NCBI RefSeq assembly: GCF_000024465.1
Contig: NC_014010.1
Span: 2,517,001-2,581,000, forward strand
Direction of reading: 5' to 3'
DNA: 64,000 bases
Origin: Candidatus Puniceispirillum marinum IMCC1322
Lineage (GTDB): Bacteria; Pseudomonadota; Alphaproteobacteria; Puniceispirillales; Puniceispirillaceae
Shown here: positions 8,622 to 62,746 of the stretch, one piece after another
How the letters are laid out: the number at the start of each line of letters is the position of its first letter
Position numbering within the stretch: position 1 is the first letter of the stretch
Made by a program: the position numbers and the translations under genes
The notes under the pieces: generated by a model
Told to the model about the DNA's origin: nothing
The model's database searches: none
The model's input: the letters and a program-made list of their open reading frames with translations, nothing else

Positions 8622-9929
8622 ATGTCGAATGTTGCAGTGATTGGTGCCCAGTGGGGTGATGAAGGTAAAGGCAAGATCGTTGACTGGCTGTCCAGCCGCG
8701 CTGATGTCGTCGTGCGCTTTCAGGGCGGACATAATGCCGGACATACATTGGTCATTGACGGGGTTGAATATAAATTATCATTATTGCCATCGGGCATTGT
8801 GCGGCCAGGCAAATTATCGGTGATTGGCAATGGTGTGGTGATCGATCCGGCACATCTATTGTCCGAGATTGACTTGCTGCGTTCGCAAGGTGCCGAAATA
8901 TCCCCCGAAAGCCTGATCGTGTCGGAAAATGCCGCGCTGATCCTGCCGGTGCATAAAGCGATTGATGCGGCGCGCGAAGCGATGCGTGGGGATGCCAAAA
9001 TCGGCACTACGGGTCGCGGTATCGGCCCTGCCTATGAAGATAAAATTGCCCGTCGTGCGGTGCGTCTTGGCGATCTGGCCAGCGAAGAAACCCTGCTTGA
9101 AAAGCTGACCGCCCTGGCCGCGCATCATAATGTGTGGCTGGCCGCGGGCGGGCATGATCTGGTTGATGCCAGCCAGATGAAGGACGATCTGCTGGCAATG
9201 CGCGATGCGATCATGGTCTATGCCGGACAAAGCTGGCGCGCACTGGAACAGGCACGCGATCAAGGCCAGAAGGTGCTGTTTGAAGGCGCGCAGGGCGTCA
9301 TGCTCGATATCGATCATGGCACCTATCCGTTCGTGACCTCCAGCAATACCGTGGCGGGGCAGGCGGCGACGGGCGCTGGCACCGGCCCGACCAGCATCGG
9401 CTTTGTTCTGGGCATTACCAAGGCCTATACCACCCGCGTTGGCAGTGGTCCCTTTCCGACCGAAGATTTCGGCGATGATGGCACCCGCATGGGTGAACGT
9501 GGCCGTGAATTTGGCACCGTGACAGGGCGCAAGCGCCGTTGTGGCTGGTTTGACGCGGTCATGGTGCGTCAGGCAAATGCCGTGGCAGGCATTACCGGCA
9601 TGGCCTTGACCAAGCTGGATGTGCTGGACGGGTTTGATGTGTTGAAAATCTGTGTTGGCTACCGGCTGGAACAGGCGGATGGCAGCGTCATAGAACTCGA
9701 TCATTTCCCCGCCGATGCGCGCGCACAGGCGGCCTGTACACCAATTTACGAGGAAATGCCCGGCTGGCATGAAAGCACGCAGGGCGCCCGCGATTGGGCC
9801 AGCCTGCCCGCGAATGCGGTCAAATATATCCGCCGTCTCGAAGAACTGACGCGCACGCCCGTGACCTTGGTATCGACCAGCCCCGAGCGCGACGATACGA
9901 TCCTGATGCGCGACCCGTTTGTGGGCTAG
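8622..9929 (+). CDS. purA: Adenylosuccinate synthetase PurA
   Basis: GTP-dependent ligation of IMP and aspartate, the first dedicated AMP step; cytoplasmic homodimer. The 435-residue protein starts [18 protein letters not shown], containing the conserved GDEGKGK loop, followed by QGGHNAGHT. It later shows [26 protein letters not shown] and [11 protein letters not shown]. The ATG at 8622 has AAGGA upstream; an in-frame start at 8520 would add 34 unconserved residues. The last 20 or so codons are duplicated 826 bp downstream (separate entries), so the 3' end of this gene was probably the target of a rearrangement. Confidence 0.97.
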
Positions 9930-9937
9930 GGGTTAGG
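9868..9937 (+). repeat. Direct repeat copy 1: 3' end of purA
   Basis: A 70-bp segment covering the last codons and stop of purA plus 8 bp beyond. It recurs at 10694-10763 with a single mismatch (9887 G versus 10713 A). Upstream similarity continues to a shared GTGAC with a 2-bp gap. The pair brackets the PemK-type toxin gene. Confidence 0.95.
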
Positions 9938-9950
9938 CTTAGAAATCTGA

Positions 9951-9990
9951 CAATATGCGCAAAAACCCATTTGCCAATATGCGCAAAAAC
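9951..9990 (+). repeat. Two direct 16-bp repeats before the purA terminator
   Basis: CAATATGCGCAAAAAC occurs at 9951-9966 and again at 9975-9990, 24 bp apart, immediately before the terminator stem. Exact duplication is seen; its role is unknown. Confidence 0.7.
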
Positions 9991-10138: not shown

Positions 10139-10543
10139 TTACAGATTTAATGACGCACGGACGCATGCCTTTATAGCGGATAAATCCGCCGCGTTTATTT
10201 TGGATTTTTGGTATCTTCTCTTACCGTTTACGTCTTTGCCAAGCGATAACAAATCGATGCGGTGAAATCCAAGCGAATAAATCATATCGCCTTTCACCCA
10301 GCGTGGCTGGTTGCCCCATCTTTTTGGAAGCGTAAATGGGATGTTCAAAAGATAGTGATAAGGCATTATTTTACGCGGATGTGAGGTGCTAAGCGGAATA
10401 ATTGTGCATAAGCCAGCGCGCTCTTTTATAGGTGTTGAAATTACTACGGCAAGACGCCGTTTTACCATCTCAGGGGGCTTGAAGCCGTGGTCAAAATCGA
10501 CTGTTACAATCGATCCGGTGGGTGGGTGGTATTTTAATGCCAT
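10139..10543 (-). CDS. PemK/MazF-family toxin-like endoribonuclease
   Basis: A 134-residue protein starting MALKYHPPTGSIVTVDFDHGF, with KPPEMVKRRLAVVIS, GLCTIIPLST and RWVKGDM in order. This is the layout of PemK/MazF-like toxins, small beta-barrel ribonucleases that cleave mRNA; the P-P-G and R...VV elements near the N-terminus are typical. The frame extends 10 residues further upstream, but the internal ATG at 10543 follows AGGG and gives the family N-terminus. No antitoxin gene of usual size adjoins it: upstream is 150 bp without a recognisable ORF, and downstream is only a 33-codon ORF. The gene is enclosed by two copies of the purA 3' end, suggesting acquisition. It could be a solitary or chromosomally adapted family member. 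Confidence 0.8.
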   Translation of the reverse strand: MALKYHPPTGSIVTVDFDHGFKPPEMVKRRLAVVISTPIKERAGLCTIIPLSTSHPRKIMPYHYLLNIPFTLPKRWGNQPRWVKGDMIYSLGFHRIDLLSLGKDVNGKRRYQKSKINAADLSAIKACVRASLNL

Positions 10544-10590
10544 GCTACCCTGTGGTCTATTGGCGGCTATCACGCCGAAATTCAGATGTA

Positions 10591-10693: not shown

Positions 10694-10763
10694 TGGTATC
10701 GACCAGCCCCGAACGCGACGATACGATCCTGATGCGCGACCCGTTTGTGGGCTAGGGGTTAGG
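10694..10763 (+). repeat. Direct repeat copy 2: displaced duplicate of the purA 3' end
   Basis: Matches 9868-9937 at 69 of 70 positions and still encodes the PurA C-terminal peptide ending MRDPFVG plus stop, but with no purA body in front of it. Its right end overlaps the stop codon of the adjacent minus-strand pentapeptide gene by 5 bp. It marks one boundary of the inserted or duplicated segment. Confidence 0.95.
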
Positions 10764-58316: not shown

Positions 58317-59270
58317 ATGATAATCCTAGATGGTGGCTTGGGCCGTCAGCTAGCCGCTGTAGGTGCGCCTTTCAGGCAACCCGAATGGTCTGCGCTAGCG
58401 TTAATGGAAGCGCCGCAATATGTCCGCGATGTGCATGACTCATTCATTGCCGCCGGTGCGGATGTTATCACGACGAATTCTTATGCCATTGTACCTTTTC
58501 ACATTGGTCAGGATCGGTTTGATGAGCTGGCTCCACAACTACTAACCTTGTCCGGCACATTGGCACAGGCGGCGGCCGAAGCTGCGGATCGTCAGGTCAA
58601 GGTGGCGGCCAGCATTCCGCCAATGTTTGGCTCATACGAACCTGATAAATTTGATCCACAGACGGGACAACAGATGATGCAGCTGTTCCAGCGTCATCTG
58701 GCACCAAGCGCAGATATCTTTCTGGCCGAAACATTGGGATCGGTGATCGAAGCTAAGATATTCCTTGAATCCTTTGTCGATTGTGCTGCCGACCTTTGGC
58801 TTTCAGTTACGTTGGAGGATGTTAAACCGGTGCCTGGTGCCCCGCGCTTGCGATCGGGCGAACCGTTATCGGCATTGCTTGATGTGATTGCATCAAAGCG
58901 GCTTGATGGTTTGCTATTTAACTGTTCGCAGCCCGAAGTCATGCATGATGCCGTCACATGCGTGTCAGAATTTCGTGCCCGACAGCCGTCGCGGCCAGCG
59001 GGGATGGGCTTGCAGATTGGTGTTTATGCCAATGCCTTTCCGTTGATGAATGATGATTACGAACATGCAAATTCAACCTTGCATCAAATTCGTCATGACA
59101 TCACGCCGCAGAATTATGCCAAATATGCGGTGCAATGGGCCGCGGCTGGTGCCGATATTATTGGCGGCTGTTGTGGTATTTCGCCTGAACATATTGAGAT
59201 TCTGGCCGCGGCACTCAAGAATAACCAAGCTGCCCAGCTATCGTCATCCACATTTGCACGCCAAGCCTAG
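58317..59270 (+). CDS. Homocysteine S-methyltransferase family protein
   Basis: 317 residues of the zinc-dependent methyltransferase barrel. It has LDGGLGRQL at the N-terminus, GADVITTNSYAI, ETLGSVIEAKIF, and zinc-binding cysteines in LLFNCSQPEVM and IIGGCCGISPEHI. It probably methylates homocysteine from S-methylmethionine, betaine-like or related donors; the donor cannot be told. ATG 58317 is preceded by GGGGGAGA. The gene ends 5 bp before the first 25-bp direct repeat of the adjacent module. Confidence 0.88.
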   Translation: MIILDGGLGRQLAAVGAPFRQPEWSALALMEAPQYVRDVHDSFIAAGADVITTNSYAIVPFHIGQDRFDELAPQLLTLSGTLAQAAAEAADRQVKVAASIPPMFGSYEPDKFDPQTGQQMMQLFQRHLAPSADIFLAETLGSVIEAKIFLESFVDCAADLWLSVTLEDVKPVPGAPRLRSGEPLSALLDVIASKRLDGLLFNCSQPEVMHDAVTCVSEFRARQPSRPAGMGLQIGVYANAFPLMNDDYEHANSTLHQIRHDITPQNYAKYAVQWAAAGADIIGGCCGISPEHIEILAAALKNNQAAQLSSSTFARQA

Positions 59271-59273
59271 CGC

Positions 59274-60800
59274 CTAGGAAGCCATGACAAAATTGCCATG
59301 CAATCCTGGGGGCAGACCATAAGGTAATGTCACCACGGCCTGTGGGCCAGCGGCCAGATCATAGGCATCCAGCACTGCCAGCTTGGTTTGACTTTGTTGC
59401 ACGTCAAGGTGAAGCCCGATTAGCCATCCCTGCGTAACACCGTTTATCACCGGACGGTCTTGATCAGCTACAAAGATATGCTCTTCAAGCATGCAATCAG
59501 CACCATAATCATAGCGATCCACCTTGCCGGTTTCGAGGTTGACACCAAGCGCATAGCGGAACAACCCGGTTTCCATATCCAACCCGATAGACCAGCCATG
59601 CTGGCTTCGGTGACTGTTTGATGAAGGTGCCATGTGCGGAAATTCATTAGACATATTATGGATGCGCTCAATTTTACCATCATATATATTGGGCGACAGT
59701 GTTACGCGACTATGCTGTGGCCGCGTCGGTGATTGGCTATGATCCTTTTCATCATTATTCAGGTATAAATTAAAAACAATATCGGCATTTTTATAGTGAT
59801 ATAGATCCAGTTCAATCGTGCCATCGACGGTTTCGAACGCACCACCTATATGGAAATGAAAGGCGTTGGGAAGCTGATGCCGACGCACAACCGATAGATC
59901 ATTTTTATTGATAACCAGAATCTCCACAGGCCGGTTTTCATGCCATTCATGCGCATTCAGAAAGCTTGCATTATTCTTTGCCTTATCCAATTCCCATGTC
60001 AGTGGCGGTAGCATAAGAATGATTGATTTTTCAGTGATCGCAAAATCATGAATCATGCTGGTATTTGGCATATCCAACAGCTTGTATTTATGTAATTTGC
60101 CCTGGGGGTTGATGTGATACAGAATCATTTCCTGACTCCATTGCACTTGTCCGAAATTCCACAGACTGCCATCGTCGTCAATACGTGGGTGTGCTGAAAA
60201 CGGTGCCATAGCAAGATCATCATGCCAGACAAGTTTTGTCATGCTGTCCAGATTGTCTGGATCAACTTGCCATGCTGATCCAGCTTCCCACAACGCCATC
60301 AGACGATTGCCGTGATGCACAATATTCGTATTGGCGGTATTGGTTTCATCGGCTGATCGTGCTGGCGGTGAACCTGCCCATTTATGGCTGAAAGTCTCGA
60401 CAAAATAATCACCAGCCTTGCTTTCGGCATTGTATTTTTCGGTATGTACAAACTGACCTTGATGCTGCACGGTCTGACCATCAAAGCGAAACGCTTGGAT
60501 AAAGCCGTCACCATCAAAACTATGTGGATAAGTCCGCTTAAATCCCTGCCTTAAAGCGGGTCCATTTTTGTAATAGGTGCCACGTAAATTGTTTGGTAGC
60601 TTTCCTTCAATTTTTGGGGTTTGTGTTGCCAACTGGTCGGGCAGGCGGATGTGTAAGGCTTTTTCACGTTGTGATAATCCTGCAAATGCTGATGAAAGAC
60701 CATAATGCGATGTGGCAAAGGCAAAGCTGGCAGCACCAGCTAGTGTCAGCGCATCACGTCTTGAAAAGTCGTTTGCCTCAAAATTGTATTTAGCTGTCAT
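59274..60800 (-). CDS. Carotenoid oxygenase (RPE65/CCD family), Tat-exported
   Basis: 508 residues. The N-terminus contains a twin-arginine-like signal (FSRRDALTLAGAASFAFA), suggesting export of the folded, metal-loaded protein. The seven-bladed propeller family blocks are seen: LRGTYYKNGPALRQG, HSFDGDGFIQAF and four candidate iron ligands at about H204 (FSAHPRID), H251 (MIHDFAIT), H317 (FHFHIGGAFE) and H502 (GLHGNF). It likely cleaves a carotenoid or related double bond; the substrate is unknown. ATG 60800 follows AGGAG. The stop codon touches a 25-bp repeat. It is in a two-gene unit with the DUF2141 gene. Confidence 0.9.
   Translation of the reverse strand: MTAKYNFEANDFSRRDALTLAGAASFAFATSHYGLSSAFAGLSQREKALHIRLPDQLATQTPKIEGKLPNNLRGTYYKNGPALRQGFKRTYPHSFDGDGFIQAFRFDGQTVQHQGQFVHTEKYNAESKAGDYFVETFSHKWAGSPPARSADETNTANTNIVHHGNRLMALWEAGSAWQVDPDNLDSMTKLVWHDDLAMAPFSAHPRIDDDGSLWNFGQVQWSQEMILYHINPQGKLHKYKLLDMPNTSMIHDFAITEKSIILMLPPLTWELDKAKNNASFLNAHEWHENRPVEILVINKNDLSVVRRHQLPNAFHFHIGGAFETVDGTIELDLYHYKNADIVFNLYLNNDEKDHSQSPTRPQHSRVTLSPNIYDGKIERIHNMSNEFPHMAPSSNSHRSQHGWSIGLDMETGLFRYALGVNLETGKVDRYDYGADCMLEEHIFVADQDRPVINGVTQGWLIGLHLDVQQSQTKLAVLDAYDLAAGPQAVVTLPYGLPPGLHGNFVMAS
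59276..59300 (+). repeat. 25-bp direct repeat, left copy
   Basis: Begins AGGAAGCCATGAC and ends AATTGCCATG; identical at all 25 positions to 62250-62274, and flanking bases differ on both sides. It covers the last codons of the carotenoid oxygenase gene (minus strand) and starts 5 bp after the methyltransferase stop. With the right copy it brackets a 3-kb module. Confidence 0.95.
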
Positions 60801-60839
60801 GATATATCTCCTAAGGCGCATATTGAGTGCGGCTTAAAG

Positions 60840-61304
60840 TTAGTAAATCTTGATCGTGTGCCGGTTCCTCATGGTGTCTTTTTTGATAATGAATGCGGCA
60901 TCAGTGAATTCAGGGGGGCCAAACAGGCCACGCGCATCATTGGAAAAGCCATAGGGTTCGGTTGGCGCACCAATCAAATTCATATCTAGTTTCTGATTGT
61001 TGTTGATATCCAGAAACGCACTCACTGCGTAGGCGCCAGATGGAATATCCTTAATGGTAAACTTGGCCTTGCTATGGGGTATCATAGCCATTTTTTTATT
61101 GTAAATAGCTTTGCCACGGGGGAAACTGTTAGCCTCACTGGCTGGCTGGACTGAAATAAAAGCAACGCCGCTACTATTATTTTCGTTGATGACATGGATG
61201 GTAAGATCGGCGGCAGATGCATAGTGGGTTGCCAGCGCTACCATTGTGCTGGCGAGAAAAATCCGTATCAATAATCTTGTTCTAAAACGTAAATGCTGTT
61301 CCAT
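60840..61304 (-). CDS. DUF2141 secreted protein
   Basis: 154 residues. A signal peptide (MEQHLRFRTRLLIRIFLAST...) ends near THYASA. The beta-sandwich domain has the DUF2141 pattern GAYAVSAFLDINNNQKLD and GAPTEPYGFSNDARG. The DxNxNxxLD segment could bind calcium. The frame is open to 61445, but ATG 61304 has GGGGA five bases upstream. It lies 39 bp upstream of the carotenoid oxygenase gene on the same strand, so both are probably exported and co-expressed. Function is unknown. Confidence 0.85.
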   Translation of the reverse strand: MEQHLRFRTRLLIRIFLASTMVALATHYASAADLTIHVINENNSSGVAFISVQPASEANSFPRGKAIYNKKMAMIPHSKAKFTIKDIPSGAYAVSAFLDINNNQKLDMNLIGAPTEPYGFSNDARGLFGPPEFTDAAFIIKKDTMRNRHTIKIY

Positions 61305-61441
61305 ATATTTCCCCATAGTTTGTGACCATTTAGAATGTGGGTCATGTTTGGTTGCGATAAATGAATGGTAAGCACGCATTGTGGATGAATGAATGTTGGT
61401 TTCGTAAAGCGTGTCCTTTCTTTCGTGATTTACACAAAAAC

Positions 61442-61464
61442 GCATTTCACGTGTCGTGAAACGC
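61442..61464. promoter_or_regulatory. Palindromic candidate operator between the DUF2141 and LytTR genes
   Basis: GCATTTCAC and GTGAAACGC flank a 5-nt centre; TTTCAC/GTGAAA is a perfect 6-bp core. It lies 15 bp before the LytTR start codon and in the divergent promoter gap, a suitable site for autoregulation. Assigned from symmetry and position only. Confidence 0.45.
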
Positions 61465-61478
61465 AGGGAACTTGTAAT

Positions 61479-62261
61479 GTGGCTAAATTACATAGATATT
61501 TTAGAGTAGAAGATATCGTCGGGTCGGTTATGTTCGCCGCCATCCTGGCTGTTTCGCAGGCCTTTGGCGTTGGCAAGAATTTTCATTTCGTTGCGTCTTT
61601 TGCGATATGGGTCGTTGTGATATTTCCTGTTTGGATGCTTGTCGCATTACCCATTCGTTGGGTTCTGCAAGCGACCCAGCAATCCTATCTGGTAGGTTTG
61701 ATGCTGGCTATATCGACCGCACTTTTGGCGTCGATACCTCAAACGCTATATATTCAATTTTGTATTGGATTAACGCTCAATCAAACGATTGCTTTTGAAA
61801 CTACATTTATTCAGGTTTTAACTGTCTCGTTATCGATCACAATTTTAGTATATGTGCTAACGGGCAGTGCAGTGCGCATCGCGAGCTTAGATGAAGCCAA
61901 CAGAAACAAAGCATCAGACCTGTCAGAAAATAACTCAAGCGCGAAACTTTTGACGGATCAATTGCCGCCTGAAATAGGTATAAACATTACTTCAATACAT
62001 GCTGAGGATCATTATCTTCGCGTTGTTACCGACAAGGGTGAGGCGCTTATATTAATGCGATTACGCGATGCAATCGCAGCGATGAGTAAGGATGCTGGTA
62101 TGCAGACGCATCGCTCACATTGGGTTTCTGACGCGTCTAACCCCGAATTGGTCCGGCAAAATGGAAAACCGGCTCTGATGTTAGATGATGGGCGCACGGT
62201 TCCAGTCAGCCGTCATTATTTGCGCGCGGTTCGTGCGTCTTTATCAGCAAGGAAGCCATGA
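61479..62261 (+). CDS. Membrane-anchored LytTR-domain transcription regulator
   Basis: 260 residues. Four membrane helices (about 14-32, 36-58, 66-88 and 100-124) are followed by a linker and a C-terminal LytTR DNA-binding domain (about 165-257: INITSIHAEDHYLRVVTDKG, LILMRLRDAI, HRSHWVSD, LDDGRTVPVSRHYLRAVR). GTG 61479 with AGGGAA eight bases upstream is chosen over the upstream ATG at 61389. Such proteins may sense a membrane signal and control a neighbouring operon; divergence from the DUF2141/carotenoid-oxygenase pair suggests that target. The stop codon lies in the right 25-bp repeat. Confidence 0.85.
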   Translation: MAKLHRYFRVEDIVGSVMFAAILAVSQAFGVGKNFHFVASFAIWVVVIFPVWMLVALPIRWVLQATQQSYLVGLMLAISTALLASIPQTLYIQFCIGLTLNQTIAFETTFIQVLTVSLSITILVYVLTGSAVRIASLDEANRNKASDLSENNSSAKLLTDQLPPEIGINITSIHAEDHYLRVVTDKGEALILMRLRDAIAAMSKDAGMQTHRSHWVSDASNPELVRQNGKPALMLDDGRTVPVSRHYLRAVRASLSARKP

Positions 62262-62274
62262 CAAAATTGCCATG
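62250..62274 (+). repeat. 25-bp direct repeat, right copy
   Basis: Identical to 59276-59300. Here it spans the last codons and the stop of the LytTR gene. The distance between copies is 2,974 bp. Confidence 0.95.
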
Positions 62275-62371: not shown

Positions 62372-62746
62372 ATGAAACGTGCACAAGATTATCTTGCCGA
62401 AGCCAACGCAGTTGTTCCAAAAATCACACCCGAAGACGGTATCGCCAAACATGAAGCGGGCAATAGCTTGTTTATTGATGTGCGGGCCAGTACGGCAATT
62501 GATGACAGCGGCACGATCGCGGGCGCTGTTCGGATTGACCGTGGCTTTATCGAATTTGCTGCTGATGATTCGACACCGTACCATAATCCGGCTCTGACCA
62601 AAGATGCCGATATCATCTTGGTTTGCGCTGCCGGTGGCCAGGCCGCGCTGGCAGGCAAAACATTAAAAGATATGGGTTATGAAAATGTTGCCAATGTTGG
62701 CGGCATTGGGGATTGGATTGCTGCTGGCGGTAAAACCGAAGCTTAA
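62372..62746 (+). CDS. Rhodanese-domain protein
   Basis: 124 residues, single rhodanese fold: FIDVRAST (residues 34-41), GAVRIDRGFIEF, and the active-site loop VCAAGGQAALAG with Cys85. No signal peptide, so cytoplasmic. It probably carries persulfide sulfur; the partner is unknown. ATG 62372 has AAGGGG eight bases upstream. The TPR gene follows after 17 bp. Confidence 0.9.
   Translation: MKRAQDYLAEANAVVPKITPEDGIAKHEAGNSLFIDVRASTAIDDSGTIAGAVRIDRGFIEFAADDSTPYHNPALTKDADIILVCAAGGQAALAGKTLKDMGYENVANVGGIGDWIAAGGKTEA

Follow-up and report, generated by a model that had tools for sequence, protein, structure and literature searches.

The analyzed window, a 64,000-nt stretch of the Candidatus Puniceispirillum marinum IMCC1322 genome, contains a three-gene module composed of a carotenoid oxygenase gene, a DUF2141 gene, and a divergently transcribed LytTR regulator gene, which is located between an mmuM-like gene and a rhodanese-domain gene and is bracketed by an exact 25-bp direct repeat. 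The following features of the locus are considered below.

58317-59270, plus strand: mmuM-like homocysteine S-methyltransferase gene (S-methyl_trans), left flank of the module site
59274-60800, minus strand: gene of an RPE65-family carotenoid/stilbenoid oxygenase (Pfam PF03055, 1.5e-94)
59276-59300: left 25-mer, covering the minus-strand oxygenase codons H501-G-N-F-V-M-A-S and the first stop-codon base
60840-61304, minus strand: gene of a secreted DUF2141 protein (PF09912, 8.6e-28, residues 36-144), directly upstream of the oxygenase gene
61401-61408, minus strand: predicted operator box 3, TTTACGAA, 21 bp from box 2
61422-61429, minus strand: predicted operator box 2, ATCACGAA, 31 bp from box 1
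61446-61460: perfect TTCACG-N3-CGTGAA palindrome, its only perfect copy in the genome, with box 1 at 61453-61460 on the minus strand
61479-62261, plus strand: gene of a membrane LytTR regulator (Pfam LytTR, 2e-12), with a putative start codon
62250-62274: right 25-mer, a putative secondary copy of the oxygenase tail that gives R-K-P-stop to LytTR and extends 13 bp beyond
62372-62746, plus strand: rhodanese-domain gene (Pfam), right flank of the module site

The gene calls made in the earlier note agree with Pfam, which assigns the module proteins to the RPE65 family, DUF2141, and LytTR, and the flanking proteins to S-methyl_trans (mmuM) and rhodanese. The PF03055 match covers nearly the whole oxygenase, and a twin-arginine (Tat) signal, SRRDAL, was recognized by eye. 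Four histidines of the protein (H204, H251, H317, and H501) are invariant across 15 aligned homologs and line up with histidines in the structure of the Synechocystis apocarotenoid oxygenase (PDB 2biw); we take these residues to be iron ligands, H501 being the predicted fourth. The profile match and the histidines at the four ligand positions place the sequence in the RPE65/carotenoid oxygenase family, with cleavage of a carotenoid or stilbenoid as the predicted function. Since a Blh-type beta-carotene dioxygenase (PF15461), also encoded elsewhere in the home genome, can supply retinal, the module oxygenase need not do so, and its likely substrate is another carotenoid or a stilbenoid.

The DUF2141 protein carries an export signal, as judged by eye, and its structure model (mean pLDDT 85) comprises an N-terminal hydrophobic helix and a beta-rich part, predicted to be a beta-sandwich. 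The model had no PDB match at an E-value of 0.001 or better, so no function can be read from the fold. A conserved stretch of the protein, DxNxNxxLD, presumably resembles a calcium loop. The LytTR protein, according to a simple hydropathy scan, has hydrophobic segments within residues 12-138, followed by the LytTR domain, with no receiver. GTG 61479 is a more probable start codon for it than ATG 61389, given the conserved operator-like motif at 61401-61460.

Oxygenase homologs were identified in 68 of the 385 genomes of the class. The DUF2141 gene adjoins the oxygenase gene in 19 of the 20 best class loci, the exception (L120) being cut by the contig, and a LytTR gene is present in 16. A single-sequence oxygenase search of genome contigs and viral contigs returned no relative, whereas an alignment-based search of the genome contigs did find relatives, of which the best 80 of 563 loci were kept. 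Among these best 80, DUF2141 accompanies the oxygenase in 77, with two of the three other loci (L161 and L182) cut at a contig end, and a LytTR match at E ≤1e-4 occurs in 28. Most of the alphaproteobacterial LytTR genes are divergent neighbors of the DUF2141-oxygenase pair, and in some Beta- and Gammaproteobacteria the genes that follow the pair encode a LytS-type histidine kinase and a response regulator with a LytTR domain (the regulators tested in L136, L139, L186, L193, and L194, the kinase in L136). On an oxygenase tree of 97 rows built by a quick method, with rows outside set length limits omitted, LytTR presence requires 9 changes, compared with 28.4 for shuffled labels. The home oxygenase has a long branch (1.51) in this quick tree and no firm position within an open fork whose 20 rows include 14 with LytTR. 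The oxygenase and DUF2141 genes, joined by a divergent LytTR gene in many Alphaproteobacteria, are a conserved, widespread, and little-studied unit.

The palindrome between the DUF2141 and LytTR genes was also counted in other loci. With at least 10 of 12 positions matching, it was found upstream of DUF2141 in 27 of the 33 loci with an opposite-strand LytTR gene (home locus included; missing in the other 6) and in 1 of the 63 loci without one, the latter being the fairer control for a motif picked by eye from the sequences later counted; regions shorter than 200 bases were omitted. It is present in 14 of the 19 clusters formed at 60% oxygenase identity and in approximately 1% of shuffled upstream regions. 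A three-box score of at least 22 of 24 characterizes 15 of the 33 LytTR loci (18 score below), 2 of the 63 others, and none of 660 shuffles. The home-genome box distances, 31 and 21 bp, are near whole helical turns; with looser boxes, the 33 LytTR loci favor spacings of 52, 21, 32, 31, 23, 30, and 20 bp, and the 63 loci lacking LytTR show no preferred spacing. Position-specific direct repeats of 20-23 bp, scored singly, were uninformative, and the palindrome/box pattern is visible in that output. The LytTR protein may bind the predicted three-box operator at 61401-61460. One-mismatch palindromes in the home genome are near chance (five versus three for the backward control), so a wider regulon is not claimed.

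Each component of the module has counterparts in known systems. The RPE65/carotenoid cleavage oxygenases, e.g., the Synechocystis apocarotenoid-15,15'-oxygenase (2biw) and lignostilbene dioxygenases, are alike in the family match and the four histidines, whereas the module enzyme is exported, as its Tat motif suggests, and is paired with DUF2141. Transmembrane LytTR regulators, as presented in PMC10269533, also have membrane segments followed by a LytTR domain without a receiver; in contrast, the regulator considered here is a dedicated divergent neighbor of the oxygenase operon with a three-box operator-like site. Unlike the LytS/LytTR two-component systems, whose kinase and response regulator genes can follow the DUF2141-oxygenase pair in Beta- and Gammaproteobacteria, the alphaproteobacterial loci have a membrane one-component LytTR. 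In Sphingomonadales, DUF2141 is described beside crtG, a carotenoid hydroxylase gene, in PMC5989583 and PMC9241875. There, as here, DUF2141 adjoins a carotenoid-modifying gene, although the partner at the present locus is a cleavage oxygenase, not a hydroxylase. A second, independent link of DUF2141 to carotenoid genes is thereby added, and three unlinked annotations (an oxygenase, DUF2141, and an orphan LytTR) become one testable unit with a predicted operator. No report of LytTR or DUF2141 paired with a carotenoid oxygenase was found in the open-access papers searched.

The exact 25-mer AGGAAGCCATGACAAAATTGCCATG is present at 59276-59300 and 62250-62274 on the same strand, and these are its only two copies in the whole genome (a single contig of 2,753,527 bp), with no third copy when up to three mismatches are allowed. 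The identical repeats described in the earlier note are thus confirmed, and the reading of the 25-mer as a dispersed repeat is rejected. The claim that such a match is not due to chance also holds, since first-order Markov resampling of the window, repeated 40 times, gave maximum exact direct repeats of 15.9 nt on average and never above 18 nt. The two copies lie over the 3' ends of the outermost genes, as had been stated, and differ in what they cover. On the left, the 25-mer comprises the oxygenase codons from His501 (59298-59300) onward and the initial base of the stop codon; ending in the codon of a predicted iron ligand, it is by its sequence constrained coding DNA and the natural original of the pair. 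The right copy consists of the last three sense codons and the stop codon of the LytTR gene, followed by 13 bp beyond the gene. LytTR relatives end 12 residues past a PVSR-like motif in 15 of 16 loci (14 residues in the other), and the protein studied here has the same 12 residues past this motif and then R-K-P-stop, read out of the right 25-mer. The right 25-mer therefore starts exactly where the relatives stop, and a copied oxygenase tail has probably taken the place of the native LytTR stop codon.

The same three genes recur in other genomes, as the earlier note had suggested looking for, but the flanking repeats do not: no shared word longer than 12 bp joins the two gene ends in the other modules. 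This comparison included 12 usable loci of a first set of 16 with LytTR (in L128 and L131 the oxygenase is cut by the contig end, and in L132 and L133 the two tested regions overlap) and 27 usable loci of a second set of 28 (L141, at a contig end, was left out). The 25-bp repeats therefore do not belong to the module as such. The Pfam scan of seven proteins encoded at 57.8-63.3 kb revealed no integrase or transposase. The 25-mers were rejected as attachment sites, because the left copy is functional oxygenase coding sequence and no integrase is encoded among the seven proteins scanned, and as a target-site duplication, because the repeat encodes conserved oxygenase residues and so derives from the oxygenase gene rather than from the target. 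Within the scanned region, the locus shows neither the integrase gene with att repeats outside functional coding sequence that defines an integrative element, nor the transposase with a target-derived duplication that defines a transposon, and 12 of the 13 empty sites described below lack the 25-mer. The proposal that the 25-mers served as recombination sites is not supported, given the coding left copy, the other tested modules without repeats longer than 12 bp, the seven scanned proteins without a recombinase, and the 12 of 13 empty sites without an above-chance match. The most plausible reading of the pair is a stray duplicate of the oxygenase gene end rather than the trace of a mobile element; more generally, genes can be bracketed by perfect repeats that stem from a copied gene end and are no signature of integration.

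No oxygenase match was detected in 60 other genomes of the family and no LytTR match in 60 relatives, and none of the 135 other genomes of the order, many of them incomplete, has an oxygenase match (43 of the 136 genomes in the order search are ≥90% complete with ≤5% contamination). Fifteen relatives contain an mmuM ortholog with at least 59% identity, and in 13 of them the rhodanese gene is nearby on the same contig and the module is absent; the arrangement is not visible in the remaining two (G003 and G035). Nine of these 13 empty sites have mmuM-rhodanese spacers of 86-240 bp, and four, all from genus g2, have spacers of about 650 bp holding another gene. The empty sites anticipated by the earlier note do exist, whereas the single 25-mer copy that it predicted there was recovered in one genome only, G007 from genus g8 (18 of 25 positions, equaled by none of 200 shuffles). 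The other 12 spacers match the 25-mer at 13-15 of 25 positions, and 29-190 of 200 shuffles are as good, i.e., the match is not above chance. The G007 match belongs to a longer oxygenase tail of 16-21 codons at the same place and in the same antisense orientation (21 residues at 57% identity, E 6e-6; 16 residues at 75%, E 1.4e-5; profile E 1.3e-4) and is therefore a gene relic, the only one in the 13 spacers; reversed spacers, used as a control, gave no oxygenase-tail match. The G007 spacer contains no DUF2141 or LytTR remnant, so only the oxygenase can be recognized there.

With the module absent from relatives and empty sites identified, its sequence distribution points to horizontal acquisition. 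The notion of a unit that moved in together with its own regulator is upheld to this extent by the recurrent gene order, the empty sites, and the 0 of 135 matches in the order. The G+C content of the module is a little lower than that of the window (0.45-0.46 versus 0.514). Counting against acquisition, the GC3 of the three genes is within the range of the genes in the window, and the best oxygenase homologs are only about 40% identical, with no near donor. A plasmid search for the oxygenase yielded 99 records, with every best place below 60% identity (37% for the best listed), and hence no evidence for a recent plasmid carrier. In the purA tree the home species groups with g8 with weak support (85/79), whereas the concatenated tree of mmuM, rhodanese, and purA places g2 with g8 instead (81). 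Species relations thus conflict between these trees. Gain of the module before the split from g8 and its loss in g8 is the simplest fit; two independent insertions, or a wider loss, are also possible.

We consider it probable that the three genes form a self-regulated operon gained by horizontal transfer and that the 25-bp pair resulted secondarily from a local rearrangement that copied the oxygenase tail. The membrane LytTR protein would sense something at the membrane and bind the shared intergenic operator, thereby controlling both its own gene and the divergent DUF2141-oxygenase pair. The two products of this pair would act outside the cytoplasm, where the oxygenase would cleave a carotenoid or stilbenoid and DUF2141 would probably serve as a helper or ligand carrier. 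The module would have entered between mmuM and the rhodanese gene in the lineage of this species and the neighboring genus g8, and would later have been deleted in g8, leaving the oxygenase tail found in G007. A local rearrangement would have put a second copy of the last 25 bp of the oxygenase gene at the LytTR end, replacing the stop codon; tandem duplication followed by deletion, a templated copy, and a single-crossover insertion at a resident oxygenase tail are candidate routes.

Rather unlikely, in our estimate, is a loss of the oxygenase that left its tail, followed by return of the module as a circular copy that recombined with this scar in one crossover. One such step would yield both copies in the same orientation, a scar of this type exists in G007, and the CTTGAA stretch that opens the DNA to the right of the second copy is also seen upstream of the rhodanese gene in relatives. 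However, neither of its two requirements, a circle joining LytTR directly to the oxygenase tail and a donor of near identity, was seen, and the G007 tail runs past the 25-mer and so is not the same scar. An oxygenase already present in the ancestor of the family and lost from all the other lineages sampled would suit the relic at the same place in G007, but we regard this as unlikely given 0 of 135 matches in the other genomes of the order and a relic in only 1 of 13 spacers. The suggestion of the earlier note, a mobile unit inserting at the 25-mer by site-specific or homologous recombination, accords with perfect, unique repeats at both outer ends, with empty sites in relatives, and with the diverged copy (18/25) in G007; it is nonetheless very unlikely, as no recombinase is encoded among the seven scanned proteins, the other tested modules lack repeats, the left copy encodes conserved oxygenase residues, and 12 of 13 empty sites have no above-chance match to the 25-mer. 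That selection preserves the near-palindromic core of the 25-mer, CATGaCAAaaTTGcCATG, an imperfect palindrome by eye, at both ends as a functional site of protein binding or termination is extremely improbable: the 16-mer core with at most one mismatch occurs in 18 of 61 genomes and its backward control in none, but those other sites are in varied, mostly coding contexts, and the core has only two sites in the home genome and is absent at the other modules tested.

Beyond the preferred reading of an acquired operon with a copied oxygenase tail, a broader and much more tentative picture may be drawn. LytTR, DUF2141, and the oxygenase might constitute a recurrent proteobacterial envelope unit for sensing and apocarotenoid production that travels from lineage to lineage together with its three-box operator. 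Light, a carotenoid, or a cleavage product might be the cue to which the membrane LytTR protein responds by switching on the periplasmic enzyme, which, with DUF2141 as ligand carrier, might produce an extracellular apocarotenoid signal or detoxify oxidized carotenoids.

The sites of the 16-mer core with at most one mismatch in the 18 of 61 genomes (L065-L084) include L077 (G024:C102:11199-11214), where, in a relative, the exact core is located right after the stop codon of the TPR gene two genes further on. Aligned by eye, this site matches at 21 of 22 positions with one gap, and may be either a coincidence or a further relic; contexts of the sites vary, and the backward control gave none.

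A separate repeat in the window duplicates the 3' end of purA (9868-9937 and 10694-10763, a 70-bp direct repeat with one mismatch) and surrounds a PemK/MazF-like toxin ORF (10139-10573, minus strand; PF02452, 2.5e-11). The toxin and the two ORFs that follow it have no match at the purA loci of 24 relatives, within flanks of about 1.5 kb. This repeat is a better candidate than the oxygenase module for an insertion at a gene end. Just past purA, at 9945-9990, two near-identical 22-bp units are arranged in tandem.
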